Source: Longimicrobiales bacterium | GTDB taxonomy: Bacteria > Gemmatimonadota > Gemmatimonadetes > Longimicrobiales > Gaopeijiaceae | Direction: 5' to 3' | Assembly: GCA_951828585.1 (NCBI GenBank) | Contig: OX639991.1 | Location: 4,074,001-4,138,000 of the forward strand | Length of the DNA: 64,000 nucleotides | The notes under the pieces: model-generated | Database searches by the model: none | What the model was told of the DNA's origin: nothing | What the model saw: only the letters and a program-made list of their open reading frames with translations | Made by a program: the position numbers and the translations under genes | Part shown: one piece after another, positions 28,342 to 56,420 of the stretch | Layout of the letters: each line of letters starts with the position of its first letter | Position numbering within the stretch: the first letter of the stretch is position 1

Positions 28342-31300
28342 ATGCGCTACTTCAAGAGCGGCCCCTGGACGGCCGCGCTGCTGCTCCTCGCTCCCCTCGC
28401 CCTCCAGGCCCAGGAGGAGGAGAAGCTGGACCCCGACCGGGGCCTTCCCCTTGAACCTGCCCGCTGGGCGCGCTTCACGACCAACGAGGGGACATGGATC
28501 TCCCTCGACGTGAGCCCGGACGGCCAGACGATCGTCTTCGACCTGGTCGGCGACCTCTACTCGATGCCCGTCACCGGGGGCGAGGCGACACGGCTGACCA
28601 GCGGCATGGGCTACGACATGCAGCCCCGGTTCAGCCCGGACGGAGAGCAGATCGTCTTCGTCTCGGACCGGAGCGGCGACAACAACGTCTGGCTGATGCC
28701 CGCCGCCGGAGGGGAACCGCGGCAGCTGAGCAAGGGAGTCGGGAGTTACTTCCTGTCGCCCGACTGGATGCCCGACGGCAAGTACGTGATCGTGTCCAGG
28801 GCCGCTGGCGTCGGCCCATTCGGGGGCCTTGAGAAGCTCTGGCTCTACCATATCGACGGCGGCACCGGACTGGAGATGGTGGGGGGGAGTGCGGGCCTGC
28901 GCATGCTGGGCGCGGCGGTCGACGGTGAAGGCCGCTACATCTGGTACGCGCAGCGCAACGGGACCTGGCAGTACAACGCCATCTTCCCGCAGTACCAGGT
29001 CTGGATGTACGACCGAAAGACGGGCACCCGGACGCCGATGACCAATCGTTACGGCTCGGCGTTCCGGCCCGTGCTCTCGCCGGACGGACAACTCCTGGCC
29101 TACGGAAGCCGTGACGACGCCGACACCGGAATCCGGCTCCGCGAGCTCGACTCGGGGAAGGAGCGGTGGCTCGCCTACCCGATCCAGCGCGACGACATGG
29201 AGTCGACGGCGTCGATGGACGTGCTGCCCGGCTACTCCTTCACCCCCGACTCGGAAGCGCTGGTGATCTCCTACGGCGGGGGGATATGGCGGGTGCCGGT
29301 GGACGGAAGCGATCCCACCGAGATCCCCTTCACCGTGAACGCGGAGGTCGCGATCGGGCCCGAGGTGGAGTTCGAGTACCCGATCGAGGACACGCCGACC
29401 TTCACGGTCAAGCAGATCCGCGACGCGCGTCCCTCCCCCGACGGAAGCACGATCGCCTTCACCGCGCTGGACCGGCTGTACGTCGCGGACCTCCCCGACG
29501 GCACCCCGCGCCGCCTGACCAGCGACGAGGTCGGCGAGTTCCAGCCGATCTGGTCGCCCGACGGACAGCAGGTCGCCTACGTGACCTGGGACCAGGACGC
29601 CGGCGAAGGCCACATCCGGCGCGTCTCCGCCAGCGGTGGCTCTTCCACCAACCTGACGACCATCCCGGCGTACTATCAGCAGCTCGCCTGGTCGCCCGAC
29701 GGCGAGCGCATCGTCGCGGTCCGCTCGACGGCACGGACGGTCCGGGAGTCGCTCGGCACGTCCGCCTCCACCCAGGCGGCGGAGTTCATCTGGATCCCCT
29801 CCACGGGCGGCGAGGAAACCGTGATCGGCCCCACGCTCGGCCGGCGCGCACCGCACTTCACCCAGGATCCGGATCGCATCTACTACTACGGCACCGTGCG
29901 GGCGGACCCGATCCCCGGGTCCCCACCCTCCCCGGCGGGCTTCGGCACCGCGCTCTCGTCGGCGCGCTGGGACGACACCGACAAGCGCGGGCACCTGAGC
30001 GTGACGGCCCGCGCCAACATTTCGGCGGGCAGTTTCCGCAGCGGTTCCAGGCGCTCCGAGACCAGCGACCTGGTGTTGCCACAGGAGGATTTCGACGAGA
30101 GGGAACCCAGCGAGATAGACATCCGTTTCGGGGCCGGCCTGATCCAGATGGCCCCCCGGGGAGACATGGCGCTCGCGGCGGTGGGCGATGACCTGTACGC
30201 GGTTCTGGTTCCCGACGTGGGGCCGGCCGTGCCCACCATCGAGGTCGGCAAGCCGGACTCGGCCGCGGTCCCCGCCTTCAAGCTCAACGATCTGGGCGTG
30301 GAATTCCCCAGCTGGGGCGCGGATGGGCGCACCGTTCACTGGTGGCTCGGCAACGCGCTCTTCACCTACGACCTGGACGCGGCCGCGGGGGATCCCGACT
30401 ACGCCCCGTCCGAGCAGCAGATCATGGTGACCGCCGAGCGCGACATCCCTGAGGGGACGGTCGTGTTGCGCGGCGCGCGCGCGATCACCATGAACGGCGA
30501 CGAGATCGTCGAGAACGCCGACGTCGTGGTCACGAACAACCGGATCGCGTCGGTTTCGGCGGGACCGGGGGAGGTGCCCGAAGGGGCGACCGTGATCGAT
30601 GTCGCGGGCAAGACGATCGTCCCGGGCTTCGTGGACACCCACGCGCACATGTGGAACCTGTGGACCTTCCACTGGGCGCGTTCCTGGATCTACGACGCCA
30701 ACCTGGCCTACGGTGTGACCACGACCCGCGACCCCCAGACCGCCACCACCGATGTGCTCTCCTACGAGGATCTGGTGCGCGCCGGGCGAATGACCGGGCC
30801 GCGCGTCTACTCTACCGGCCCGGGGGTCTTCTCCCAGGACTTCATCCGCAGCTACGAGCACGCGCTGGACGTGCTCACCAAGTACAGCCGCTACTACGAC
30901 ACCAAGACCTTCAAGATGTACATGACGGGCAACCGCCGACAGCGCCAGTGGCTGATCATGGCCGCTCGCGAACTCGGGCTCATGCCCACCACCGAGGGCG
31001 GGCTGGAATACCGCCTCAACCTGACCCACGCGATCGACGGCTACCCCGGGATCGAACACTCACTCCCGATCGTGCCGGCCTACAGCGACGTGGTGGAGCT
31101 CTTCGCGGAATCGGGGACCGTGAATTCGCCCACGCTGCTGGTCACCTACGGCGGCCCCTGGGTGGAGAACTACTTCTACACGCGCTGGGACATCTTCGGC
31201 GACGAGAAGCTGACCCACTTCACGCCCCGGCGCGAGCTCGACATCAAGGCGCGGCGCCTCCAGACCGACGGGCCCGGACAGGGCGCCTGGTTCATGGAGG

Positions 31301-31734
31301 ACGAGTATGCGCACCCGAAGCACTCCGCTTGGCTGGCACAGCTCGTCGAGGGCGGCGGCCGCACGGGCGTGGGCAGCCACGGTCAGCTGCAGGGTCTGGG
31401 CTTCCACTGGGAGCTGTGGGCCATGCAGAGCGGCGGGATGAGCGAACACGACGCGCTTCGGGCCGCGACGCTGATGGGCGCCGAGGCGATCGGGCTGGGC
31501 GGCGACCTGGGTTCGATCGAGCCCGGGAAGCTGGCCGACCTGGTGATCCTCGACGCGAATCCGCTCGACAACATCCGCAACACGAACACGGTGTACCAGG
31601 TGATGATGAACGGACGGCTCTACGACGGAGACACACTCGACGAGCTCTGGCCCCGGCAGCGACCTGCGCCGTACGAAGCATGGAGATACGTCGCGCCGAA
31701 TGTCAGCGCCGGGATGAAGGGAGGTGCCCGATGA
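28342..31734 (+). CDS. Giant secreted PD40-propeller amidohydrolase (paralogue 1)
   Basis: The 1130-residue exported protein has a signal peptide (AALLLLAPLALQAQ). TolB/PD40-type WD-like repeats fill about residues 45-690 (WISLDVSPDGQTIVFDLVGD, QPRFSPDGEQIVFVSDRSGD, FQPIWSPDGQQVAYVTWDQD). An amidohydrolase (urease/dihydroorotase superfamily) domain follows from about residue 705: metal motif GFVDTHAHMWNLW near 764, YGVTTTRDPQTATTD, GYPGIEHSLPIVPAYSD, GVGSHGQLQGLGFHWELW and IEPGKLADLVILDANPLD. Such enzymes are usually assigned to peptide/imide hydrolysis; the substrate is unknown. The stop overlaps the next gene by 4 nt (ATGA). An almost duplicate promoter module lies immediately upstream. Confidence 0.9.
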   Translation: MRYFKSGPWTAALLLLAPLALQAQEEEKLDPDRGLPLEPARWARFTTNEGTWISLDVSPDGQTIVFDLVGDLYSMPVTGGEATRLTSGMGYDMQPRFSPDGEQIVFVSDRSGDNNVWLMPAAGGEPRQLSKGVGSYFLSPDWMPDGKYVIVSRAAGVGPFGGLEKLWLYHIDGGTGLEMVGGSAGLRMLGAAVDGEGRYIWYAQRNGTWQYNAIFPQYQVWMYDRKTGTRTPMTNRYGSAFRPVLSPDGQLLAYGSRDDADTGIRLRELDSGKERWLAYPIQRDDMESTASMDVLPGYSFTPDSEALVISYGGGIWRVPVDGSDPTEIPFTVNAEVAIGPEVEFEYPIEDTPTFTVKQIRDARPSPDGSTIAFTALDRLYVADLPDGTPRRLTSDEVGEFQPIWSPDGQQVAYVTWDQDAGEGHIRRVSASGGSSTNLTTIPAYYQQLAWSPDGERIVAVRSTARTVRESLGTSASTQAAEFIWIPSTGGEETVIGPTLGRRAPHFTQDPDRIYYYGTVRADPIPGSPPSPAGFGTALSSARWDDTDKRGHLSVTARANISAGSFRSGSRRSETSDLVLPQEDFDEREPSEIDIRFGAGLIQMAPRGDMALAAVGDDLYAVLVPDVGPAVPTIEVGKPDSAAVPAFKLNDLGVEFPSWGADGRTVHWWLGNALFTYDLDAAAGDPDYAPSEQQIMVTAERDIPEGTVVLRGARAITMNGDEIVENADVVVTNNRIASVSAGPGEVPEGATVIDVAGKTIVPGFVDTHAHMWNLWTFHWARSWIYDANLAYGVTTTRDPQTATTDVLSYEDLVRAGRMTGPRVYSTGPGVFSQDFIRSYEHALDVLTKYSRYYDTKTFKMYMTGNRRQRQWLIMAARELGLMPTTEGGLEYRLNLTHAIDGYPGIEHSLPIVPAYSDVVELFAESGTVNSPTLLVTYGGPWVENYFYTRWDIFGDEKLTHFTPRRELDIKARRLQTDGPGQGAWFMEDEYAHPKHSAWLAQLVEGGGRTGVGSHGQLQGLGFHWELWAMQSGGMSEHDALRAATLMGAEAIGLGGDLGSIEPGKLADLVILDANPLDNIRNTNTVYQVMMNGRLYDGDTLDELWPRQRPAPYEAWRYVAPNVSAGMKGGAR

Positions 31735-34700
31735 GCCCCCGCACGAAGTTCCTCGGATCGGCGGCCCTGGCGTTTCTCGCGCTCGCGGTGCTGAACGCGC
31801 CCGTGGAGGCCCAGCGGCCGAGCGGACGACCGAATCCCCTTCCACTGCGCAGCGCGCGGACGGCCGAATTCACGGCCACGGAAGGGACCTGGATCTCGCT
31901 GGACGTGAGCCCCGACGGGCAAATGATCGTTTTCGACCTCCTGGGCGACCTCTACACCATGCCCATCACGGGGGGCGAGGCATCGCCGCTTCTGACCGGG
32001 ATGGCCTACGAGGTGCAGCCCCGCTTCTCGCCGGACGGCGAGTCGGTGGTGTTCGTCTCCGACCGCAGTGGAGGGGACAACATCTGGACGATGCGGCTCG
32101 ACCGCACCGACACCACCCAGGTCTCGCGCGGCAACAACAACCTCTACCTGTCACCCGAGTGGGAGCCCGGCGGCGAGTTCGTGGTTGCGAGCCGCTCGGG
32201 CGGACTGGGAGGTGCGGCACAACTGGTCATGCTCAACGCCGAGCGGGGCACCCCGGTGGCGCTGAGCGGCGTCGCCGGCGGCAAGTCCGTCGGCGCGGCG
32301 TTCAGCCCCGACGGACGCTATCTCTGGTACGCCAGGTCGTTCTCGGACTGGACCTACAATGCCACCTTCCCGCTGTACCAGGTGTACCGGTACGACCGCG
32401 AGCGGGCTTCCAGTTCGCTCATGACCAGCCGGTACGGCTCGGCCATGCGGCCCGCGATCTCGCCCGACGGGCAGTGGCTCGTCTACGCCACGCGCTGGGG
32501 CACCGAGACCGGCCTGCGCAAACGCAACCTCGCGACGGGCAGCGAGGAGTGGCTGGCTTACCCCGTGCAGCGTGACGAACAGGAGTCACGGGCGCCGCTG
32601 GACGTGATGCCGGGCTACTCCTTCACGCCCGACGGTTCGGCGATCGTGATTTCGTACGGAGGCAAGATCTGGAACGTGCCGATGGACGGAAGCGACCCGA
32701 CCGAGGTCCCCTTCGAGGTCCCGGTCAAGCTCGCGATCGGTCCCGAGGTGAAGTTCGCCTACCAGGTGGACACGACCGCGATGGTCACCGCGAGTCAGGT
32801 CCGCACCCCGGTGGCGTCCCCGACGGGTGACCGGATGGTCTTCACCGCATTCGACCGCCTCTGGGTTCAGGCCATGCCCGATGGGGAACCGACGCGGCTC
32901 ACCGAAGCGGACGCGGGCGAATTCCACCCTCAGTGGTCGCCCGATGGACAGTGGATCGCGTACGTGACCTGGGACGACGCCGAGGGTGGCCACATCATGA
33001 AGGTGGCGGCCTCCGGCGGCGCACCCGTCCAGCTCTCCGCCACCCCGGGGGCCTACTCGAACGTGGCCTGGGCGCCCGGCGGCGACCGCGTGGTCGCTAC
33101 GCGGAGTGCCGCGGGTGACCTGCTGGCAGGTTCCGGCCTCTTCGCCGGGCCGCTTGGCGGAGCATTCGTATGGGTGCCGTCGGCAGGCATCGAACCCGCC
33201 GAGCCCGAGGTGATCTCACCCACCGGTTTTCGCGACGTGATGCACTTCGCGGCCGACGAGCCCGACCGGATCTACGCCTACAGCCCGATCGAGGGGCTGG
33301 TGTCGTTCCGCTGGGACGGGACCGACGTGAAGAGCCATCTCCTGGTAAGGGGGATGGTGGGTGCGCCCGGGATCGGCGACCCGCACCCGGATCAGTGGGA
33401 ATACCTGCCCAGGCGGGTGTTCCCGTGGCGAAAGGCACCCGATCCGACCGATCCCGAGCAGGATCCTCCCGCCGAACCGGGTTTCCCGCAGCCCGCCGGG
33501 CTGGTGATCCTGTCACCCCAGGGCGACCGGGCCCTCGCCCAGATCGCAAGGGACATCTACGTGGTGGACCTGCCGGAGGCGGGGTCGCAGCCGGCCTCCA
33601 TCGTGACCACGCCGGGGACATCGCGCAAGCTGACCGCTGTCGGCGGGGAGTTCCCGTCGTGGGCGCCGGACGGCACTTCCGTGCACTGGTCGCTGGGGAA
33701 CGTGCTGTTCTCCTATGACCTGGACTTCGTGGAGGCTGAGGAGGCCGAGGCGAAGGAGATACGTCACGCCCGGAGGCTGATTCGCGCCCGGGCCATCGCC
33801 GTGTCCGACACGCTGAAGAAGAAGCGCGCCGAGGCGGACAGTATCAAGAATGCCGACGAGGAGGTCTCCGACTCGCTCGAAGCGGAGATCGCGCGGCTCG
33901 CCGGCGACTCGGTGCAGGTGGTGGCCGATTCGCTCTTGGCGCGCGCCGATTCGATCCGCGCGGCCGCCGAGGAGTACGCGGACAAGGCCGGCAGGATCCG
34001 CGAGGGCGACAAGGAGATTCTGGAAGATTCAACCGAGTCCTACGAGGCGAAGGAGCGGAAGATCGAGGCCAAGCTGCCGCGGGATGTCCCGCGCGGCACG
34101 GTCGCGCTCACGGGGGGGCGCATCATCACGATGGCGGAAGTCCCGGGCGATACCACCGGGGAACCCCACGTGATCGAGAACGGGGTGGTGGTCGTCACCG
34201 ACAACAGGATCGTGGAGGTCGGGATGGCCGATTCGGTCGAGATCCCGGACAGCGCGGTGGTGATCGATGTGGCCGGCAAGACGCTCGTGCCCGGGTTCAT
34301 CGACACGCACTACCACGCACAATGGCTCGTCCCCGAGGTCCATCCCGAGGAGGTCTGGCAGTACCTGTCCACCCTGTCCTACGGCGTCACGACCACGCGA
34401 GACCCGCAGACCGCGGTCACCGACATCCTGAGCTACACCGACCGCGTGCTCACGGGCGGCATGACCGGGCCCCGCATCTACTCGACCGGCCCGGGTGTCT
34501 TCAGCAGCGAGAATATACGGGACGCCGATCACGCGAAGACCATCCTGAGGCGCTACGCCCAGTACTTCGACACGAAGACGCTCAAGATGTACATGAGCGG
34601 AAACCGCCAGCAGCGGCAGTGGATCATCCAGGCGGCCCGCGAACTGAAGCTGATGCCCACCACCGAAGGCGGCCTCGACTTCAAGATCGACATCACGCAC

Positions 34701-35411
34701 GCCATTGACGGGTATTCCGGGATCGAGCACAACCTGCCGATCACACCGATCTACTCCGACGTGGTGGAACTATTCGAGGAATCGGGAACCACAAACTCCC
34801 CTACACTCCTGGTGTCGTACGGGGGACCGTTTGGCGAGAACTACTACTACGTCACCGAGAACCCGCACGACGACGAGAAGCTCAACGTGTTCGCGCCCGC
34901 GGACTACATGGACGCGAGGACGCGACGGCGCGGTCCCGGAGCCGGGGGCAGCCCGGGCGCGGCCGGCTGGTTCCTGGAAGAGGAACACGTCTTCCCCCGC
35001 CACGCTGAATTCGTGAAGAAGATGCTCGAGGCCGACGGCCGCATGGGCGTGGGCAGCCACGGGCAGCTGCAGGGCGTCGGGTACCACTGGGAGATGTGGG
35101 CCATGGGGGCCGGCGGCGCGACCCCCCACGACATCCTCAGGGCGGCTACGATCCTGGGCGCCGAGGCGATCGGTTTCGGAGCCCATCTGGGGAGCATCGA
35201 GAAGGACAAGTTCGCCGACATCGTGGTGTTGAACTCGAACCCGCTCGACGAGCTGCGTAATACCGTGGACATTCGCTACGTGATGAAGGACGGCCGGCTG
35301 TACGACGGCATGACGCTGAACGAAGTGTATCCGGAGGAACGGACGCTGGAGCGGCAACGGCCCACGGAGCAGGATGCCGGCAGCGCCGCGGCGGGGATAC
35401 GGAAGCGGTAG
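31731..35411 (+). CDS. Giant secreted PD40-propeller amidohydrolase with a charged helical insertion (paralogue 2)
   Basis: The 1226-residue paralogue is translationally coupled to the previous gene (ATGA). Signal peptide: LGSAALAFLALAVLNAPVEAQ. The PD40 propeller covers about residues 40-660 (WISLDVSPDGQMIVFDLLGD, QPRFSPDGESVVFVSDRSGG). The amidohydrolase domain contains FIDTHYHAQWLVPEVHPEEV near residue 858, YGVTTTRDPQTAVTDILSY, GYSGIEHNLPITPIYSDVVE, GVGSHGQLQGVGYHWEMW and LGSIEKDKFADIVVLNSNPL. Between the two lies a ~110-residue Glu/Lys/Arg/Ala-rich, probably coiled-coil insertion (about residues 665-780) that paralogue 1 lacks. A 15-bp-stem hairpin follows the stop. Confidence 0.9.
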   Translation: MSPRTKFLGSAALAFLALAVLNAPVEAQRPSGRPNPLPLRSARTAEFTATEGTWISLDVSPDGQMIVFDLLGDLYTMPITGGEASPLLTGMAYEVQPRFSPDGESVVFVSDRSGGDNIWTMRLDRTDTTQVSRGNNNLYLSPEWEPGGEFVVASRSGGLGGAAQLVMLNAERGTPVALSGVAGGKSVGAAFSPDGRYLWYARSFSDWTYNATFPLYQVYRYDRERASSSLMTSRYGSAMRPAISPDGQWLVYATRWGTETGLRKRNLATGSEEWLAYPVQRDEQESRAPLDVMPGYSFTPDGSAIVISYGGKIWNVPMDGSDPTEVPFEVPVKLAIGPEVKFAYQVDTTAMVTASQVRTPVASPTGDRMVFTAFDRLWVQAMPDGEPTRLTEADAGEFHPQWSPDGQWIAYVTWDDAEGGHIMKVAASGGAPVQLSATPGAYSNVAWAPGGDRVVATRSAAGDLLAGSGLFAGPLGGAFVWVPSAGIEPAEPEVISPTGFRDVMHFAADEPDRIYAYSPIEGLVSFRWDGTDVKSHLLVRGMVGAPGIGDPHPDQWEYLPRRVFPWRKAPDPTDPEQDPPAEPGFPQPAGLVILSPQGDRALAQIARDIYVVDLPEAGSQPASIVTTPGTSRKLTAVGGEFPSWAPDGTSVHWSLGNVLFSYDLDFVEAEEAEAKEIRHARRLIRARAIAVSDTLKKKRAEADSIKNADEEVSDSLEAEIARLAGDSVQVVADSLLARADSIRAAAEEYADKAGRIREGDKEILEDSTESYEAKERKIEAKLPRDVPRGTVALTGGRIITMAEVPGDTTGEPHVIENGVVVVTDNRIVEVGMADSVEIPDSAVVIDVAGKTLVPGFIDTHYHAQWLVPEVHPEEVWQYLSTLSYGVTTTRDPQTAVTDILSYTDRVLTGGMTGPRIYSTGPGVFSSENIRDADHAKTILRRYAQYFDTKTLKMYMSGNRQQRQWIIQAARELKLMPTTEGGLDFKIDITHAIDGYSGIEHNLPITPIYSDVVELFEESGTTNSPTLLVSYGGPFGENYYYVTENPHDDEKLNVFAPADYMDARTRRRGPGAGGSPGAAGWFLEEEHVFPRHAEFVKKMLEADGRMGVGSHGQLQGVGYHWEMWAMGAGGATPHDILRAATILGAEAIGFGAHLGSIEKDKFADIVVLNSNPLDELRNTVDIRYVMKDGRLYDGMTLNEVYPEERTLERQRPTEQDAGSAAAGIRKR

Positions 35412-35431: not shown

Positions 35432-35469
35432 AGCGGCCCGCGCGGGACATGTTTCCCGCGCGGGCCGCT
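35432..35469. terminator. Strong hairpin between convergent genes, probable bidirectional terminator
   Basis: AGCGGCCCGCGCGGG (35432-35446) and its perfect complement CCCGCGCGGGCCGCT (35455-35469) form a 15-bp G+C stem with an 8-nt loop, ACATGTTT. It is followed by CGCTTTC rather than a long T tract. It lies 20 nt after the stop of the amidohydrolase gene and 29 nt from the stop of the convergent plug-protein gene, so it probably serves both transcripts. Confidence 0.75.
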
Positions 35470-35498: not shown

Positions 35499-36542
35499 TC
35501 AGCGACGCGTCCAGATCAGGATGACCCCACAGGCCGCCCCCGTCGAACTGTACTGCGCCGGCATGCCCGCGGTGGACGGGTAGATCTCGACGCCCGCAAC
35601 CACGCCGGGCGTGAGAAGGTGGTCGATGCCGGCCGGTTCGTCTCCGCCCCGGTGAACCAGGATGTCGTCGAGATAGACGCGCGGGTAACAGAAGTTCCCG
35701 TCCAGGTCCCCAATCCGGCCGCTGCGGAGAACAATCGACTTGTCGATGCCCTGCGCGTGCACGAGCACCCCGGGGAGGCCCTGGAACATGTCCGTCATCT
35801 CGGCGGGTCCGCGGAACTCGATGTCCTCGCGATCGATGAACTCTCCGAACCCCTCGGACTGGCGCTCATAGAACCCGGTCTTCTGCAACGCGACTTCACG
35901 TCTCTCCACCACGACCTCCAGGGGTGCAAGCTGCACCGGATCCACCGAGAGGGAAGCCTGAACGTTGGTCACGCGGCCCCGAATCACCTCGATCGAGTCC
36001 GACCTCGTCGCGTAGCCGAATTGCGAGAAGCCGATCACGTGCCAGCCGGCCGCCAGCTCCTCCAGCATGAAGCGGCCCCGCCCGTCCGTCAGCGTACCCC
36101 CCTGACCCCCGTCCAGCTGCACCCGCGCCCCGGCCAGAGGAGCTCCGGTATACCCGTCGGACAGCACACCCATGATCCCGGTGATGACCTCGCTCCCCGA
36201 GAGGATGACCGGAGCCATCGACGTTTGGAAGCCTCCGGCACGGAACACGTTGAAGTCGCCTACCGCCGGATTGTACTCGGGGTGGGTAAGCTGGAGCCGA
36301 TACCCGCCGATCGCGATTCGGTTCACCGTGAACTCCCCGGCGGCGTTGGTCTCGAAACGAAGGCCCGTCCCCTCCAACACCACCGCTACCCCCGCGATGG
36401 GTCCCCCGGTCACCGCATCGATCACCTTGCCGGTGATGGCGACGAATTCACGTTCGGGCGCCTGTGCCGTCACTGCGCCGGCCCCCGTATGAAGCGCTAT
36501 GGCGAGACACGCCAACAAACTCGGGAATCGCAAGATTCGCAT
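35499..36542 (-). CDS. Plug-only TonB-like protein with two CRL domains (paralogue B)
   Basis: The 347-residue exported protein has a signal peptide (SLLACLAIALHTGAGAVTAQA). Two carboxypeptidase-regulatory-like beta-sandwiches lie at about residues 34-115 (ITGKVIDAVTGGPIAGVAVV) and 120-205 (ITGIMGVLSDGYTGAPLAGA). A TonB-receptor plug domain then runs to the C-terminus (FIDREDIEFRGPAEMTDMFQ, GLPGVLVHAQ, PRVYLDDILVHRG, GVEIYPSTAGMPAQYS), ending ACGVILIWTRR. In ordinary receptors this strand leads into a ~500-residue barrel; here the protein stops. The ATG at 36542 has GAGGAGG 7 nt upstream. It follows the third amidohydrolase by 4 nt. Function unknown; a secreted ligand-binding or regulatory plug is one possibility. 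Confidence 0.85.
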   Translation of the reverse strand: MRILRFPSLLACLAIALHTGAGAVTAQAPEREFVAITGKVIDAVTGGPIAGVAVVLEGTGLRFETNAAGEFTVNRIAIGGYRLQLTHPEYNPAVGDFNVFRAGGFQTSMAPVILSGSEVITGIMGVLSDGYTGAPLAGARVQLDGGQGGTLTDGRGRFMLEELAAGWHVIGFSQFGYATRSDSIEVIRGRVTNVQASLSVDPVQLAPLEVVVERREVALQKTGFYERQSEGFGEFIDREDIEFRGPAEMTDMFQGLPGVLVHAQGIDKSIVLRSGRIGDLDGNFCYPRVYLDDILVHRGGDEPAGIDHLLTPGVVAGVEIYPSTAGMPAQYSSTGAACGVILIWTRR

Positions 36543-36546
36543 CACT

Positions 36547-39500
36547 TTACCTCCTCTGTGATTGCCCTGTATCGGGAGGCTCCACCCTCCACCACCACTG
36601 CGTGGGGAGCGGCCTCCGGCGGGGCCAGACCTCGGTGAGCGTAGCCGCATCGTACAGGCGGCCGTTCTTCATTACATATTCGATGTCTATCGTGTTCTCC
36701 AGGTTGTCCAGCGGGTTGGACCCCAGAACCTGCAGGTCCGCCAGCTTCCCCGCTTCGAGCGATCCCAGATCGCCCGCCAGCCCGATCGCATCGGCGCTCA
36801 TCAACGTCGCCATGCGCAGCGCGTCGTGGTTGTCCATGCCCCCGGACGCCATCATCCAGAGCTCCCAGTGCGTGCCCAGGCCCTGGACCTCGCCGTGGGA
36901 ACCCAGTCCGGCCTGTCCCCCCGCATCCATCCACTTGACCAATTGCTCGGCTTGCTGGAAGTGCGGGTACTGGTCGTCGCGGTACCAGGTCGTGGTCTTC
37001 CACTTGTCAAGTTCGTCGTGCGGGGTGAAGAAGCGCAATCTCTCGACCTCGTCCAGGTTGGTGCGCGTCAGGTAGTACTGGCGCCCCGAAGGCCCCCCGT
37101 AGGCGACGATGAGGGTGGGTGTGTAGACCATCCCGCTGAAGGCGCCCAACTGGACGACATCGCGGTAGAAGGGGCTGATCGGCAGGGAGTGTTCGAGGCC
37201 GGCGTAGCCGTCCTGGGCCAGCGTCAGGTTCATGGTGAAGTTGGAGCCGCCTTCGGTGGTGGGAGTGAGGCCCAGTTCGCGGGCCGCCATGATGACCCAC
37301 TGCCGCACGTTGCGGTCACCCGCCATGTACTGCTTGATCGTGAGCGTGTTGAAGTGGTCGGAGTAGCGCCGAAGCACATCGCGGGCGTCGTCGAGGCTGG
37401 AGATGGCATCGCGACTGAACACGCCGGGACCGGTCGAGTAGATGCGCGGCCCGATCATCTCGCCCGTCTCCATCAGGTCGCTGTAGGTGACGACATCCTC
37501 CGACGACGTCTGGGGGTCGCGCTGCGTGGTCACGCCGTAGGCCAGCTGCGCCAGGAACTGTGAGACCTGGCCGCGGTGTACTCCCCAGGCAACCCAGGTG
37601 TGGGCGTGAATGTCGACCAGCCCGGGCAGAATGGTCCTGCCGGACATGTCGCGCACCTCCGCGCCCCCGGGGATATCCACGCTCCCGCTGGGGCCCACGG
37701 CGACGATACGGTTGTCCCGCACGACGATGTCGCCGCGGGGGATCACCTCGTCGCCGCGCATGGTGATCAAACGCGCCCCGCTCAGAACGACCGTGCCTCG
37801 CGGCTTGTCCTTGGGGACCGTGATCTCCACATCGTAGCGGGCCGCCTCGTAGACCGGGCCGTCCTCGTCGGCGTCCTCTTCCTCCTCCTCGGCCACGATG
37901 ACATCGGCGGAGTCCCCGGCTGGCGCGTCGGCAGTGTCCGGACTCTCCGCTTCGGCTCGCCGCTCGGCTCGCGCGTTGGCCACGGAATCGGCCACCAGGG
38001 AGTCGCTCAACGCCACATCGTGCAGGAAGAAGCTGCGCCCGATGGAGTAGAAGCCGGCCGAACCGTCCTGGTTCCAGCCCACGAAATCGCCGCCGATCCT
38101 CGTAAGCCGGCGGGTGGGCATGGAGGAAGAGGAGGCGACCGACACGGTGGGCGCCTGGCCTCCCGCCGGCGGCACCGTGATCATGTACACGTTGCGGTTG
38201 GCCCGCACCATGGCGCGCTTGCCGTCCGGGGAAAGCACGACCTCGTCGGGTGCGCCGCCTGCCCCGGGGCCCCCACCCGACGGGGCGGCCACCTTGACGA
38301 CGGTGTGGATGTCGGTGCCGTCGTAGCGCATGGACAGAAGTCCTTCGGAACCCGTCCACACATAGATGCGGTCAGGGTCCGGTCCCGGGTGCGGCGCGTT
38401 GCGCCCTTGCTGGGTCGCGCCCCGCCCGACCCACGCGATCCGCGTCGGCTCTCCGCCCTCGGCCGGCAGCCACACGTACTCGAGTTCGGCGGCGGGACCG
38501 TGGAAGCCGAAGTCCTCGAGCGTGCGCATGCGGTGCATCTTCGAGCCACGCACGGCCAGGATGCGCGTCCCGTCACCGTTGTATGCCACCCGGTCGAAGA
38601 ATGCGGAGGCGGTGGTCAGCTTCTCCGGTTCCCCACCTCCGTCGGTGCGCACCCGCCAGATGTCGCCGCCGGTGGAGTCGTTCCAGGTCACATAGGCGAT
38701 ATGGCGTCCGTCCGGGGACCATACCGGGCCGTGCTCGACGTCGGCGGAGGAGGTAAGGCGGCGGGCGTCGCGAATGTGCGGGTAGCCCTCCGTCTGCGTC
38801 CCGGCGGGCTCGGACAGGGGGCCGATCCAGAGCCGGTCCAGGGCCGTGAAGACCAGTTGGCGGCCATCGGGAGAAGGGCGGGCGCCCCGGATCTGGGAGA
38901 CGGTCAGCGTGGAGTCGTTGATCGGATAGTCGAACTTCACGAGCGGACCGAGCTCCTGCTGGACGCGCGCCGTGAAGGGGATCTCGGCCGCCTCCCCCGA
39001 AGGCACTTCCACCCGCATGATCCTGCCGCCATAACTCGTAATCAATGCGCGCGAATCCGGCGTCCAGGCCGAGCCCGGATAGTTGTCCCGGTCACGCGCT
39101 CCCCCACCCTGCGAGTCGTCGCGCTGAACGTCCATGACGAGCCAGGTCTCTTCGCCGCTTGCCAGATCGCGCAGCCGGAGCGCCGGTCGCGCGTCGTAGC
39201 GGGTGGCGTACACCAGCCAGCGTCCGTCGGGGCTCGGCATCGGCCGGAAGGCACCTTCGTGTTCGTGCGTACGGACGAAGGTGCCCCCGGTCACGCGGTC
39301 GAGCAGGGCGATCTGGTAGTCCCCGATCTGGCGGGCCGAGCTGCGGGGCGAGTGGTCCGGGCCGAAGTCGCTCGGGTCGGTTTCCACACCGGACGCGGAC
39401 GCGGCCGGGAATCCCCCTCCCAGATTGCCGCGCACATTCACCCACAGGTAGCGGGGATCGGAGCCGAACGCGGCACCGATGTGGGATGGAGGAATCGGGC

Positions 39501-40044
39501 CGCCTTCCGCACGATGTCCGGTCAGCTGGATGCCCGAACCGCCGTCCTCGTGGTAGAGCCAAAGCTGCGATCCCTTGTTGGCGATGACGTACTCGCCGTC
39601 CCGCGTCCACAGGGGGGACATGTAGCTGTCGCGCCGGGTGTCGGTCAGTTGGCGGGGCTCGGTCCCGTCGGCGTTGGCCACCCAGAGGTTCTCGGAACCG
39701 TCGCGGTCGCTGACGAAGACGAGTTCGCCGCCGTCGGGAGAGTAGCGCGCCTGCATGTCGTAGCCCTGGCCGCTGGTAATGCGGGTCGCGGTGCCGCCGC
39801 CGACGGGCAGGGTGTAGAGGTCGCCGAGCAGTTCGAAAACGATGGTCTCCCCGTCCGGAGACAGGTCGAGCGATATCCAGGAACCCTCGGCGGTCGTGAA
39901 GTCGAGCGTCCGCGCCGGGATGAGGGGGAGGGAGTTGGCGCGCCGGGCCGCCCGGGCGGAGCTGTCGTTCTGCTCGGCCGTCTGCGCGGAGAGGGGCGAT
40001 GCCGCGAGGGTCGCCACCAGCGATACGAAGGCGGCCCTGTTCAC
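36547..40044 (-). CDS. Giant secreted PD40-propeller amidohydrolase (paralogue 3)
   Basis: The 1165-residue paralogue of the two plus-strand amidohydrolases. Signal peptide: AAFVSLVATLAASPLSAQ. PD40 blades span about residues 45-690 (WISLDLSPDGETIVFELLGD, QARYSPDGGELVFVSDRDGS, GPVWSPDGRHIAYVTWNDS). An acidic insertion (EEEEEDADEDGP, near residue 725) precedes the amidohydrolase domain: GLVDIHAHTWVAWGVHRGQ near 810, YGVTTQRDPQTSSEDVV, GYAGLEHSLPISPFYRDVVQ, GLGSHGEVQGLGTHWELWM and LEAGKLADLQVLGSNPLDN. The start is a GTG, 17 nt after the upstream plug-protein gene. It is flanked on both sides, in the same operon, by plug-only TonB-like proteins. Confidence 0.9.
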   Translation of the reverse strand: MNRAAFVSLVATLAASPLSAQTAEQNDSSARAARRANSLPLIPARTLDFTTAEGSWISLDLSPDGETIVFELLGDLYTLPVGGGTATRITSGQGYDMQARYSPDGGELVFVSDRDGSENLWVANADGTEPRQLTDTRRDSYMSPLWTRDGEYVIANKGSQLWLYHEDGGSGIQLTGHRAEGGPIPPSHIGAAFGSDPRYLWVNVRGNLGGGFPAASASGVETDPSDFGPDHSPRSSARQIGDYQIALLDRVTGGTFVRTHEHEGAFRPMPSPDGRWLVYATRYDARPALRLRDLASGEETWLVMDVQRDDSQGGGARDRDNYPGSAWTPDSRALITSYGGRIMRVEVPSGEAAEIPFTARVQQELGPLVKFDYPINDSTLTVSQIRGARPSPDGRQLVFTALDRLWIGPLSEPAGTQTEGYPHIRDARRLTSSADVEHGPVWSPDGRHIAYVTWNDSTGGDIWRVRTDGGGEPEKLTTASAFFDRVAYNGDGTRILAVRGSKMHRMRTLEDFGFHGPAAELEYVWLPAEGGEPTRIAWVGRGATQQGRNAPHPGPDPDRIYVWTGSEGLLSMRYDGTDIHTVVKVAAPSGGGPGAGGAPDEVVLSPDGKRAMVRANRNVYMITVPPAGGQAPTVSVASSSSMPTRRLTRIGGDFVGWNQDGSAGFYSIGRSFFLHDVALSDSLVADSVANARAERRAEAESPDTADAPAGDSADVIVAEEEEEDADEDGPVYEAARYDVEITVPKDKPRGTVVLSGARLITMRGDEVIPRGDIVVRDNRIVAVGPSGSVDIPGGAEVRDMSGRTILPGLVDIHAHTWVAWGVHRGQVSQFLAQLAYGVTTQRDPQTSSEDVVTYSDLMETGEMIGPRIYSTGPGVFSRDAISSLDDARDVLRRYSDHFNTLTIKQYMAGDRNVRQWVIMAARELGLTPTTEGGSNFTMNLTLAQDGYAGLEHSLPISPFYRDVVQLGAFSGMVYTPTLIVAYGGPSGRQYYLTRTNLDEVERLRFFTPHDELDKWKTTTWYRDDQYPHFQQAEQLVKWMDAGGQAGLGSHGEVQGLGTHWELWMMASGGMDNHDALRMATLMSADAIGLAGDLGSLEAGKLADLQVLGSNPLDNLENTIDIEYVMKNGRLYDAATLTEVWPRRRPLPTQWWWRVEPPDTGQSQRR

Positions 40045-40061
40045 TACCCGTCGGTACCCGC

Positions 40062-41246
40062 TCAGCGTCTCGTCCAGATCAGGATGGTCCCGCAGAAGGT
40101 ACCGTGCCCCTGGTATTCGGGCGGAAGACCACTCACCGACGCATACACTTCGACCCCCGCCACCACGCCCGGATCCACGAATGTGTCCAGCCGGGCCGGC
40201 TCGTCGCCCCCGCGGTGAGCGATAATGCCGTCGATGTAGACGCGAGGAAAGCAGCGCTCATAGATATCCGTAGGCGCCCCGGGTCCCGGGTCGTCGCTCG
40301 CCAACGTCCTTGGTTGCAGGGTCATGTGGCGGCCGCTCCGGAGCACCACCCACTTCTCAAGCTGGTTTAGCGGGTCACTGTACAGGTCAACACCCGCCAT
40401 CCCGCTGAAGAGATCGGTCATTTCACTCGGTCCCCGCATTTCGATCTCCTCGCGGTCTATGAACTTTCCGAAGCCCGTCTTCTGGCGGTGGTAGAATCCC
40501 CTCCTCTGCAATATGATCTCGCGCCTCTCGACGGAGACCTCGATGGGGTCGAGCTGCACGGGATCGACGGACAGCGAGACATCCACGGTGGTGACGCGCC
40601 CGGGCACTACCCGGATCGTGTCCGCCCGCGGTGTGTAGCCGATCATGGAGAACTCGACCACATGCTGGCCGCCGATGAGCCGGTCCAGCACGAACTCGCC
40701 TCGCAGGTCCGACAGGACCCCCTGCCGCCCACCGCCCATCGTGACGTGCACGCCCGAGAGCAGAGAACCGGTGTTGCGGTCCGTGACCAACCCGATGATG
40801 CCCGTCATGAGTTCGTCCGACCCCTGGGCCACCGGTTTCATCGACGTGACGAAGCTGCCAGGGCGCATGACCGTGAATTCGCCAACCGCCGGATTGTAGT
40901 CCTGATGGGCGAGTTCGAGCCGGTATTCACCCAGTCGGATCCCGGACAGCTGGAATTGTCCCTCGGCGTCCGTTTCGACACGAAGTTCTCCGGCGGGACC
41001 CGCGCCCGAGCCACGCACGAAAACCTGCACGCCGACGATGGGATCTCCGGTGACCACGTCCACCACGCGACCGGTGATCGTGACTTGATCCGCGCCCCTT
41101 TCCTGGGACCTCGCGTCCCCCGGAGCAGCCACGAGGACGGCCGACAGCGCCAGGACAACAACCGGGATGAAAGGCCGGCGTACCGACGCCCGGAAGCGCC
41201 CCGTCCGAATCGGAGGTCGTCGTAGCAACTGAGTCGAATCGATCAT
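40062..41246 (-). CDS. Plug-only TonB-like protein with CRL domains (paralogue A)
   Basis: The 394-residue exported protein has the same architecture as the product of 35499-36542. An N-terminal basic stretch and hydrophobic core (FIPVVVLALSAVLVAAPGDA) precede CRL domain 1 (ITGRVVDVVTGDPIVGVQVF), CRL domain 2 (MTGIIGLVTDRNTGSLLSGV), and a plug domain (KFIDREEIEMRGPSEMTDLF, PRVYIDGIIAHRGGDEPARL, GVEVYASVSGLPPEYQ) that ends GTFCGTILIWTRR at the stop codon. A longer plug loop (VLRSGRHMTLQPRTLASDDP) distinguishes it. The ATG at 41246 has GGAGG 8 nt upstream. It is the first gene of the operon plug A-amidohydrolase 3-plug B. Confidence 0.85.
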   Translation of the reverse strand: MIDSTQLLRRPPIRTGRFRASVRRPFIPVVVLALSAVLVAAPGDARSQERGADQVTITGRVVDVVTGDPIVGVQVFVRGSGAGPAGELRVETDAEGQFQLSGIRLGEYRLELAHQDYNPAVGEFTVMRPGSFVTSMKPVAQGSDELMTGIIGLVTDRNTGSLLSGVHVTMGGGRQGVLSDLRGEFVLDRLIGGQHVVEFSMIGYTPRADTIRVVPGRVTTVDVSLSVDPVQLDPIEVSVERREIILQRRGFYHRQKTGFGKFIDREEIEMRGPSEMTDLFSGMAGVDLYSDPLNQLEKWVVLRSGRHMTLQPRTLASDDPGPGAPTDIYERCFPRVYIDGIIAHRGGDEPARLDTFVDPGVVAGVEVYASVSGLPPEYQGHGTFCGTILIWTRR

Positions 41247-54153: not shown

Positions 54154-54320
54154 TCCGTCGGCGGCCGACTGCTTCGCGTCGCAATCCGCCCTTGGTGTGG
54201 CCGCCGCGCGAGTAGAACGTCGGCTTGCCCCGTCGTTCGGCATTGTCGGCTGCGTCACGTCCGGCTTACCATCAGCGAACTCTTCCACCAAGCCCCCCTG
54301 CTACCCCTATCGAGAATTCC

Positions 54321-56420
54321 GTGACCGTACGCACGCTTGCGCTGGCGGGACTGGCCTTCGCGGCCGCGCCGCTTCCAGCGTCCCCCGCGCACGCCCAGAC
54401 CGAAGAGGGCGACACCATCACCCTGCCGCCCGTCGTGGTGTCCGTGCTTCGGTCGCCGGTGCGGCTGGACCGCCTCCCCTTCGCGGCCTCGGTGATGGCC
54501 GGCCCCGACCTCGCGGAGGGCACCGCCGGTCTCTTCATCGAGGAGGCCCTGCACGCCCTGCCGGGGGTGAGGGTGCAGAACCGTTACAACGCCTCGGTCG
54601 GCGAGAGGATTTCGATCCGCGGTTTTGGCGCCCGCTCCCAGTTCGGCGTCCGGGGCATCAAGATCCTCGTCGACGGGATTCCGGCCACCCTTCCCGACGG
54701 CCAAACCACCCTGGATCACCTGGACGTGGGTTCGCTGGGACGGGTGGAGGCGCTGCGGGGGCCCGCTGCCGCGCTGTACGGGAACGGCGCGGGCGGGGTG
54801 ATCCTGTTTCGTAGTGCAATGCCGTTCGGAGGCGCCTACCGGCAGCAGGCGACGGTCGTGGCGGGCTCCGACGGGTTGCTCAGACTGCAGGCGACGGGCT
54901 CGGGGACGGCCGGCGGGATCGGTGTCCGCGCCAGCGTGGCGCGTAGCGTATTCGACGGATTCCGGGACAACGTCTCCGACTCGGGAGAAGATCCGTACAG
55001 CCGGGCGGAACGGACCACCGTCAACGCCGCTCTGACCTCGGCGGCCGGCGGCGGCACCCTGGCGCTCCAGCTGAGCGGACTCGACCTCGACGCGCTCAAC
55101 CCGGGTTCGCTTCCGGCCGACCTGTTCGAGGAGGGCAGCAACCAGGCGTGGGGCTTCAATGTGGCGCGGAAGACCCGCAAGGACGTCAGGCAGGGCCAGG
55201 CGGGGGTGAGCTGGAGCGGGCCGCTGGGCGGGCTCGACGGCGTGTTCTCGGTATACGGGGTGAGGCGGGAGCTGGACAACCCGATCCCGACCCGGGTGAT
55301 CGACCTGAAGCGAAGCGGGGGGGGCGTGCGCGCGGCGCTGGGCAGGGAGTGGGGAGGGGGCGATCGGGCGGGCCGGGTGGACTTCGGGGTGGAGGGCGAG
55401 TTTCAGGGCGACGACCGCCGGAACTACGCCAATCAGGGGGGCGAAGCTGGGGACCTGCAGGTGGACCAGCAGGAAAACGTGCGGGCCATGGCGGTCTTCG
55501 GGCAGTTCCGTCTGCCCCTGGGCACGCGCCTGGAGACGATGGGGGCCCTTCGTGTCGACCGCTTCAACTTCAGCGCGGATGACCGGCTGGTGGGAACCGA
55601 CAACCCCGACGACTCCGGAGACCGCGCCATGGGCGGCATCAGCCCGTCCTTCGGGCTGCACCTGGACCTGGGCGATCACGGTGTCTTCGCCTCGGTCGCC
55701 CGCTCCTTCGAAACGCCCACCACGACCGAACTCGCCAACCAGCCCGACCGCGCCGGAGGCTTCAATCCCGGACTGGAACCCCAGCGGGGATGGACCCTCG
55801 AAGGCGGCCTCCGCGGCACGCTGGGAAACCGCGCCGCCTACGATATCACGGTCTTCAACACGACCCTGACGAACCAGCTGGTCCCCTTCGAGGTCCCGGA
55901 CGCGCCAGGACGGACGTTCTACCGCAACGCCGGGGGGTCCCGGGTTCGGGGGTTCGAATTCTTCACCCGCACCGAGCTGTCGTCACTGCTGACGGCTCGG
56001 CTCGCGTACGGGTACGTTGACGCCCGCTTCAACGAGTTCACCGTCGGCGACGACACCTTCGACGGCAACCGCGTCCCCGGCCTCGCCCCGCACCGGCTGG
56101 AGGGCGCGTTGCGGATGGGTCGCGGGGTGTGGTACGGCGAGGTACGCGTCGAAACCAGAGGCGAGGTCCCCGCCAATGACGCCAACGACGCCAACGCCGA
56201 CGCCTTCACCCTCGTCGAGTTGCGTTTCGGGGCCACGGGCGTCCGCGCGGGAAATCTTCGCCTCTCACCGTTCGCCGCCGTGACCAACGTGACCGATGCG
56301 CGCTACGCCTCCTCGGTCGTGGTCAACGCCTTCGGCGGGCGCTACTTCGAGCCCGGGCCCGGCCGTGGTGGCTATGTGGGGCTGTCGCTGACCTGGGAAT
56401 CTGCATCGGAGCCGCGCTGA
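54321..56420 (+). CDS. TonB-dependent outer membrane receptor
   Basis: The 699-residue receptor has a signal peptide (LALAGLAFAAAPLPASPAHA). The plug domain spans about residues 35-160 (VVVSVLRSPVRLDRLPFAAS, ISIRGFGARSQFGVRGIKIL, VDGIPATLPDGQTTLD, VEALRGPAAALYGNGAGGVI). A ~540-residue beta barrel follows and ends in the aromatic-rich terminal strand GYVGLSLTWESASEPR. Unlike the two plug-only proteins upstream, this one is complete. Sequence style (FecA/PupA-like) suggests a small iron chelate or vitamin, but the ligand cannot be assigned. The start is taken as GTG at 54321 with a weak GAGAA; a longer frame adds unconserved residues. Its 3' end overlaps the convergent phosphodiester glycosidase-like gene by 49 nt. 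Confidence 0.93.
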   Translation: MTVRTLALAGLAFAAAPLPASPAHAQTEEGDTITLPPVVVSVLRSPVRLDRLPFAASVMAGPDLAEGTAGLFIEEALHALPGVRVQNRYNASVGERISIRGFGARSQFGVRGIKILVDGIPATLPDGQTTLDHLDVGSLGRVEALRGPAAALYGNGAGGVILFRSAMPFGGAYRQQATVVAGSDGLLRLQATGSGTAGGIGVRASVARSVFDGFRDNVSDSGEDPYSRAERTTVNAALTSAAGGGTLALQLSGLDLDALNPGSLPADLFEEGSNQAWGFNVARKTRKDVRQGQAGVSWSGPLGGLDGVFSVYGVRRELDNPIPTRVIDLKRSGGGVRAALGREWGGGDRAGRVDFGVEGEFQGDDRRNYANQGGEAGDLQVDQQENVRAMAVFGQFRLPLGTRLETMGALRVDRFNFSADDRLVGTDNPDDSGDRAMGGISPSFGLHLDLGDHGVFASVARSFETPTTTELANQPDRAGGFNPGLEPQRGWTLEGGLRGTLGNRAAYDITVFNTTLTNQLVPFEVPDAPGRTFYRNAGGSRVRGFEFFTRTELSSLLTARLAYGYVDARFNEFTVGDDTFDGNRVPGLAPHRLEGALRMGRGVWYGEVRVETRGEVPANDANDANADAFTLVELRFGATGVRAGNLRLSPFAAVTNVTDARYASSVVVNAFGGRYFEPGPGRGGYVGLSLTWESASEPR

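Follow-up and report, generated by a model that had tools for sequence, protein, structure and literature searches.

Plugs are known as the gates that sit inside the barrels of TonB receptors. The receptors that bear most closely on this study are of the Oar type, one of which, from Myxococcus xanthus, is needed for secretion of the protease PopC. The proteins we describe here are like the Oar-type TonB-dependent receptors in having a Sec leader, a CRL extension, a strand at the position of the TonB box and a plug, all in the same order. They differ in having no barrel, in belonging to a family that often has two or more CRL domains and in carrying a pair of Cys residues.

The window, by which we mean the whole 64,000-nucleotide stretch of DNA that was analysed, carries on its minus strand an operon of three genes in the order plug B, PD40-amidohydrolase, plug A. 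Plug B (40062..41246, minus strand) is an open reading frame of 394 aa, predicted to encode an exported CRL-CRL-plug protein without a barrel. After a gap of 17 nt comes the gene for an exported PD40 (TolB-like propeller) amidohydrolase of 1165 aa (36547..40044, minus strand), which has a GTG start, the leader MNRAAFVSLVATLAASPLSAQ and Pfam matches to PD40, Amidohydro_1 and Amidohydro_3. A further 4 nt on lies plug A (35499..36542, minus strand), a second predicted exported CRL-CRL-plug protein without a barrel, 347 aa long, whose ATG at 36542 follows a ribosome-binding site (AGAGGAGG) that overlaps the amidohydrolase stop codon. Sec-type leaders were read by eye on all three proteins. Facing plug A, convergently and outside the plug operon, is a paralogue of the PD40-amidohydrolase (31731..35411, plus strand; ~39–43% identical), and between the convergent operons lies a perfect 16-nt inverted repeat (35432..35469) that is likely a bidirectional terminator. 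On that side two PD40-amidohydrolase genes stand in tandem (28342–35411, plus strand), sharing a few nt and running towards the plug operon; the source genome, assembled as one contig of 4.47 Mb, has about nine such paralogues. RNA families were sought in the operon region and none was found. Further along the window is an ordinary TonB-dependent receptor, complete with both plug and barrel (54225–56420, plus strand). Receptor matches with identical scores occur at both contig ends of G000 C1 (about 4.9–7.5 kb and 4466.3–4468.8 kb), probably because a circular assembly was left with its overlap unresolved.

The identity of the plug domain had to be drawn from several sources. In both plug A and plug B, two CRL domains (CarboxypepD_reg) score above the Pfam cut-off; the Pfam Plug scores of the two proteins, 18.0 and 16.5 bits, fall below the cut-off of 23.9. 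A profile of twelve paralogues matched TonB receptors in the PDB, in the case of BtuB over residues 25–133, approximately up to the plug/barrel boundary, with the match stopping three positions short of the profile's end. When the family profile was aligned with the 16 ordinary plugs of the source genome, hhalign gave a probability of 97.4%, and relatives that carry a TonB_C domain reach 41–49 bits for Pfam Plug. Because the PDB match, the hhalign probability and the relatives over the Pfam cut-off agree, we assign the domain as a plug and conclude that the protein stops about where a barrel would begin. Plug A and plug B are 52% identical and both end in CGxILIWTRR-stop (CGVILIWTRR in plug A, CGTILIWTRR in plug B), at the last plug strand. 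Neither has a TonB_dep_Rec beta-barrel or, by Pfam, a TonB_C domain. Their partial N-terminal matches to TIGR04056 score 34–40 bits, below the cut-off of 368 for a full-length SusC/RagA protein. An AlphaFold model of plug A from eight sequences had a mean pLDDT of 50.6, too poor to judge either fold or disulfide. Judged by sequence, the plug A/B family corresponds to the N-terminal half of an Oar/SusC-type receptor (CRL domain or domains, TonB-box-position strand, plug) with no barrel, and we are almost certain of this barrel-less CRL-plug architecture.

The family is known from Gemmatimonadota, where 121 genomes were surveyed and 91 were found to have it; its named relatives are Gemmatimonadota MAGs, and searches of viral contigs and plasmids returned no relatives. 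For genes beyond the window, starts were assigned from open reading frames with codon scoring. Read from fetched DNA, the 109 full-length Gemmatimonadota members all lack a barrel. Past the last plug strand, 99 of them run on for no more than 24 residues, one for 40 and nine for 122–135. The same C terminus is seen in 109 family members, which rules out chance or a recent stop, and the comparison supports the barrel-less end as an ancestral design kept by selection, as opposed to a truncation. Barrels downstream in relatives with long frames were also considered and ruled out: such frames owe their length to extra N-terminal sequence or to reading from upstream, and the tails tested at the C terminus are TonB_C. 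The initial annotation had seen in both window proteins a signal peptide, two CRL domains and a plug stopping at ILIWTRR, set close on either side of a PD40-amidohydrolase, and had taken their common end for a selected architecture. All of this was borne out, by the spacers of 17 and 4 nt, by the leaders, Pfam matches and profiles and by relatives and orthologues that, wherever read, are barrel-free, and the genome survey for barrel-less CRL-plug proteins that it had called for proved positive.

The source genome encodes 16 family members at E 1e-10, clustered at 2.17 Mb and at 3.59–3.61 Mb and otherwise single, and about 20 full TonB receptors as judged from barrel and plug counts. One paralogue in this genome (L032 7704–8812) is split over two frames and is a probable pseudogene. 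Another frame of 989 aa (L211 10127–13093) has four CRL domains before a Cys-type plug. Open reading frames at L159 (G000 2922500–2928000) contain several plug-like modules and no barrel; they are distinct from the Cys-marked plug family.

That mark consists of two Cys residues, one before the xVYxDG strand and the other before the last strand (CGxxxxW). Each is present in 108 of the 109 members, the sole exception (L214) lacking both, and at these places they occur in 0 of the 16 ordinary plugs of the source genome. As the two are conserved together and lost together, they probably form a disulfide that locks the free-standing plug. An isolated neisserial TonB-receptor plug reportedly retains its fold (Oke et al. 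2004, cited in PMC12419801). The segment joining CRL to plug reads xAVxLDPIEVTV in the barrel-less proteins and, by alignment only, lies over the TonB-box region of the source genome's receptors, xAIxLDEIVVTG. Its consensus has a Pro where those receptors mostly have none, and the strand may simply be structural. The nine long tails of 122–135 residues all come from one Gemmatimonadota family (f5); in five of five tested (L206, L207, L210, L226 and L227), TonB_C scores above the Pfam cut-off, in chains that also contain CRL and Plug. The other four (L209, L212, L213 and L214) are counted among these CRL-plug-TonB_C fusions by eye resemblance only. The source genome, for its part, encodes TonB_C proteins. 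A barrel-free CRL-plug fragment of Myxococcus Oar interacts with the C-terminal domain of TonB in a two-hybrid assay (PMC6434023).

The enzyme encoded between the two plugs appears, from its nearest solved relatives (Xaa-Pro dipeptidase and prolidase-like amidohydrolases), to be of a dipeptidase-like kind. The metal-binding HxH is present, DIHAH aligning with DMHVH of 2qs8, and the aspartate of the GTD motif is absent, with a His (GSH) at the aligned position. Fifteen genomes of the genus, including the source genome, have an orthologous amidohydrolase (81–91%), and at 12 of the 15 loci a plug gene adjoins it with tight spacing. Plugs flank the enzyme on both sides in three (G000, G007 and G019). 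In nine others, the plug is upstream and a protein of ~160–210 aa is downstream, identified by sequence in part of the nine and by size and place in the rest. This downstream protein, of about 177 aa (loci L107–L117, for example L109 2474–3004), is without a Pfam match. Five of the nine were tested for the gene that precedes the plug: it encodes a PD40-repeat S9 peptidase in four (G001, G004, G006 and G010), and in G018 its product is a CRL protein. The plug diverges faster than its neighbour, with a mean identity of 71% vs 91% for the amidohydrolase over 36 genome pairs.

Each partner is also found without the other. G005, G012 and G022 have the amidohydrolase without an adjacent plug, and none was found genome-wide at E 1e-20. 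G013 has suffered a deletion of the amidohydrolase, whose 3' end remains between two intact plug genes (scar L102/L099 7740–7966), and at the matching place G003 and G020 carry plugs with no such amidohydrolase adjoining. No co-directional plug was found within 1.5 kb at 16 other amidohydrolase loci in the genus, at 30 outside it or at the amidohydrolase paralogues of the source genome, nor was one found alongside the orthologues in other genera (78%, 77% and 64%); the genomes include drafts, in which contig breaks may hide genes, and loci with partial matches show only part of their flanks. Because there is no co-directional plug at the other loci tested and each partner is found alone, the association is real but local to one genus, and neither plug nor amidohydrolase needs the other to persist. 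Recurrent adjacency to PD40-amidohydrolases, which the initial annotation had proposed as a check, therefore held at 12 of 15 loci in the genus and failed at the other loci within and beyond it. The larger claim, of an envelope system built around the amidohydrolase, is not supported: most plug paralogues in the source genome sit away from the enzyme, and the other amidohydrolase loci tested have no co-directional plug.

What, then, do the plugs sit beside? Among 48 same-strand neighbours, no common partner gene was found, the commonest Pfam family accounting for 3 of the 48; secreted enzymes, propellers and SusD are among them. A member with one CRL domain follows SusD both in the source genome (L035 640–6115) and in another genus (L140 4214–6390). 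At L035 the gene before SusD is, by Pfam, a SusC that has both a plug and a barrel of its own; in the L140 genus, only SusD was tested.

The reading we prefer, to which as a whole we give a probability of roughly 0.4, is that these proteins are adaptors for TonB. The family looks like the periplasmic half of an Oar-type receptor that has come loose from its barrel. A disulfide between the paired Cys would allow the plug to fold by itself, whether in the periplasm or at the cell surface. The soluble protein would contact the TonB system by way of its TonB-box-like strand or, where TonB_C is fused, through its own TonB_C domain, and would link TonB to partners in the envelope. Within the source genus, the PD40-amidohydrolase and, in several sister species, the S9 peptidase would fill this role, both being secreted hydrolases of a peptidase-like kind. 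Several points tell against such an adaptor: the strand at the TonB-box position has the unusual Pro and may be no more than structural, the TonB_C extension was seen in one Gemmatimonadota family only, and the neighbours are diverse, with no common partner gene. Nearly as likely is a soluble carrier independent of TonB, in which the locked plug and the CRL domains would hold a peptide, sugar or metal as ligand, in the periplasm or on the surface, and the hydrolase or transporter adjoining each paralogue would be the one it serves. The many divergent paralogues per genome, their varied neighbours, the Sec leaders and a plug that evolves faster than the amidohydrolase would all suit a carrier, which leaves unexplained why the TonB-box-position strand has been kept and why some relatives have a TonB_C domain.

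Other readings fare worse. It is doubtful that plug and amidohydrolase, with the S9 peptidase, form a locus-specific peptide-processing complex on the envelope, as the tight adjacency within the genus and the S9 peptidase gene ahead of both in four of the sister genomes tested might suggest; orthologues of the enzyme in other genera have no plug, G003, G013 and G020 have plugs with no adjoining amidohydrolase, and the enzyme stands without a plug in G005, G012 and G022. A split receptor, in which the plug protein docks in a separate, plug-less TonB barrel, is very unlikely. The protein does end at the plug/barrel boundary, and the barrels at 176323, 4161045 and 1361881 have no Pfam Plug match (divergent plugs are possible there). 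Yet no plug-less barrel adjoins the family members examined, so that the neighbouring genes give no backing to the docking on a partner barrel suggested in the initial annotation; the SusC close to one paralogue already contains a plug, about 16 plugs would require many partners, and the Cys pair peculiar to the family suggests that the protein is stable alone. As for degenerate TonB receptors that have recently lost their barrels, the idea has next to no chance and is already refuted for the window genes: against the one visibly split paralogue (L032) stand a C terminus common to families across the phylum, reading frames that are intact, a newly acquired and conserved pair of Cys and an expanded gene family. 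Returning to the TonB adaptor, there is a bolder form of it that we think unlikely yet worth stating. The Gemmatimonadota plug may have become a free-standing, disulfide-locked module on which TonB acts in solution, driving or sensing a target that is not an outer-membrane channel, and some lineages may have merged client and transducer in a single CRL-plug-TonB_C chain.

Barrel-less plugs nearly as numerous as full receptors in one genome, with Cys of their own and TonB_C fusions, suggest that a plug can itself serve as client or adaptor. Proteins of this kind escape surveys that demand plug and barrel together. The survey in PMC6434023 counted only proteins with both, and so left this family out by definition. 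Our literature search, which covered few subscription papers, found no report of barrel-less, isolated or standalone plug proteins or of Gemmatimonadota plugs. Being short and exported, the proteins should suit expression and tests of TonB binding.

The amidohydrolase shares propeller repeats, an amidohydrolase domain and the HxH motif with PD40/TolB-propeller and Xaa-Pro dipeptidase-like amidohydrolases, and differs in its His (GSH) in place of the GTD aspartate. The plug family resembles SusC/RagA and the SusC–SusD operons in its partial N-terminal TIGR04056 match and in the SusD that one paralogue and its other-genus counterpart follow; it differs in having no barrel, in not being SusC itself and in that most members lie away from SusCD. 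With the TonB energy transducers (PF03544) it shares TonB_C, matched by the five tested C-terminal extensions of one family; the window proteins have no TonB_C, and the fused relatives carry a leader, CRL and plug ahead of it. The CarboxypepD_reg extension before the plug, characteristic of the Oar subclass, is present in the window proteins; the barrel that defines a TonB-dependent receptor is missing.
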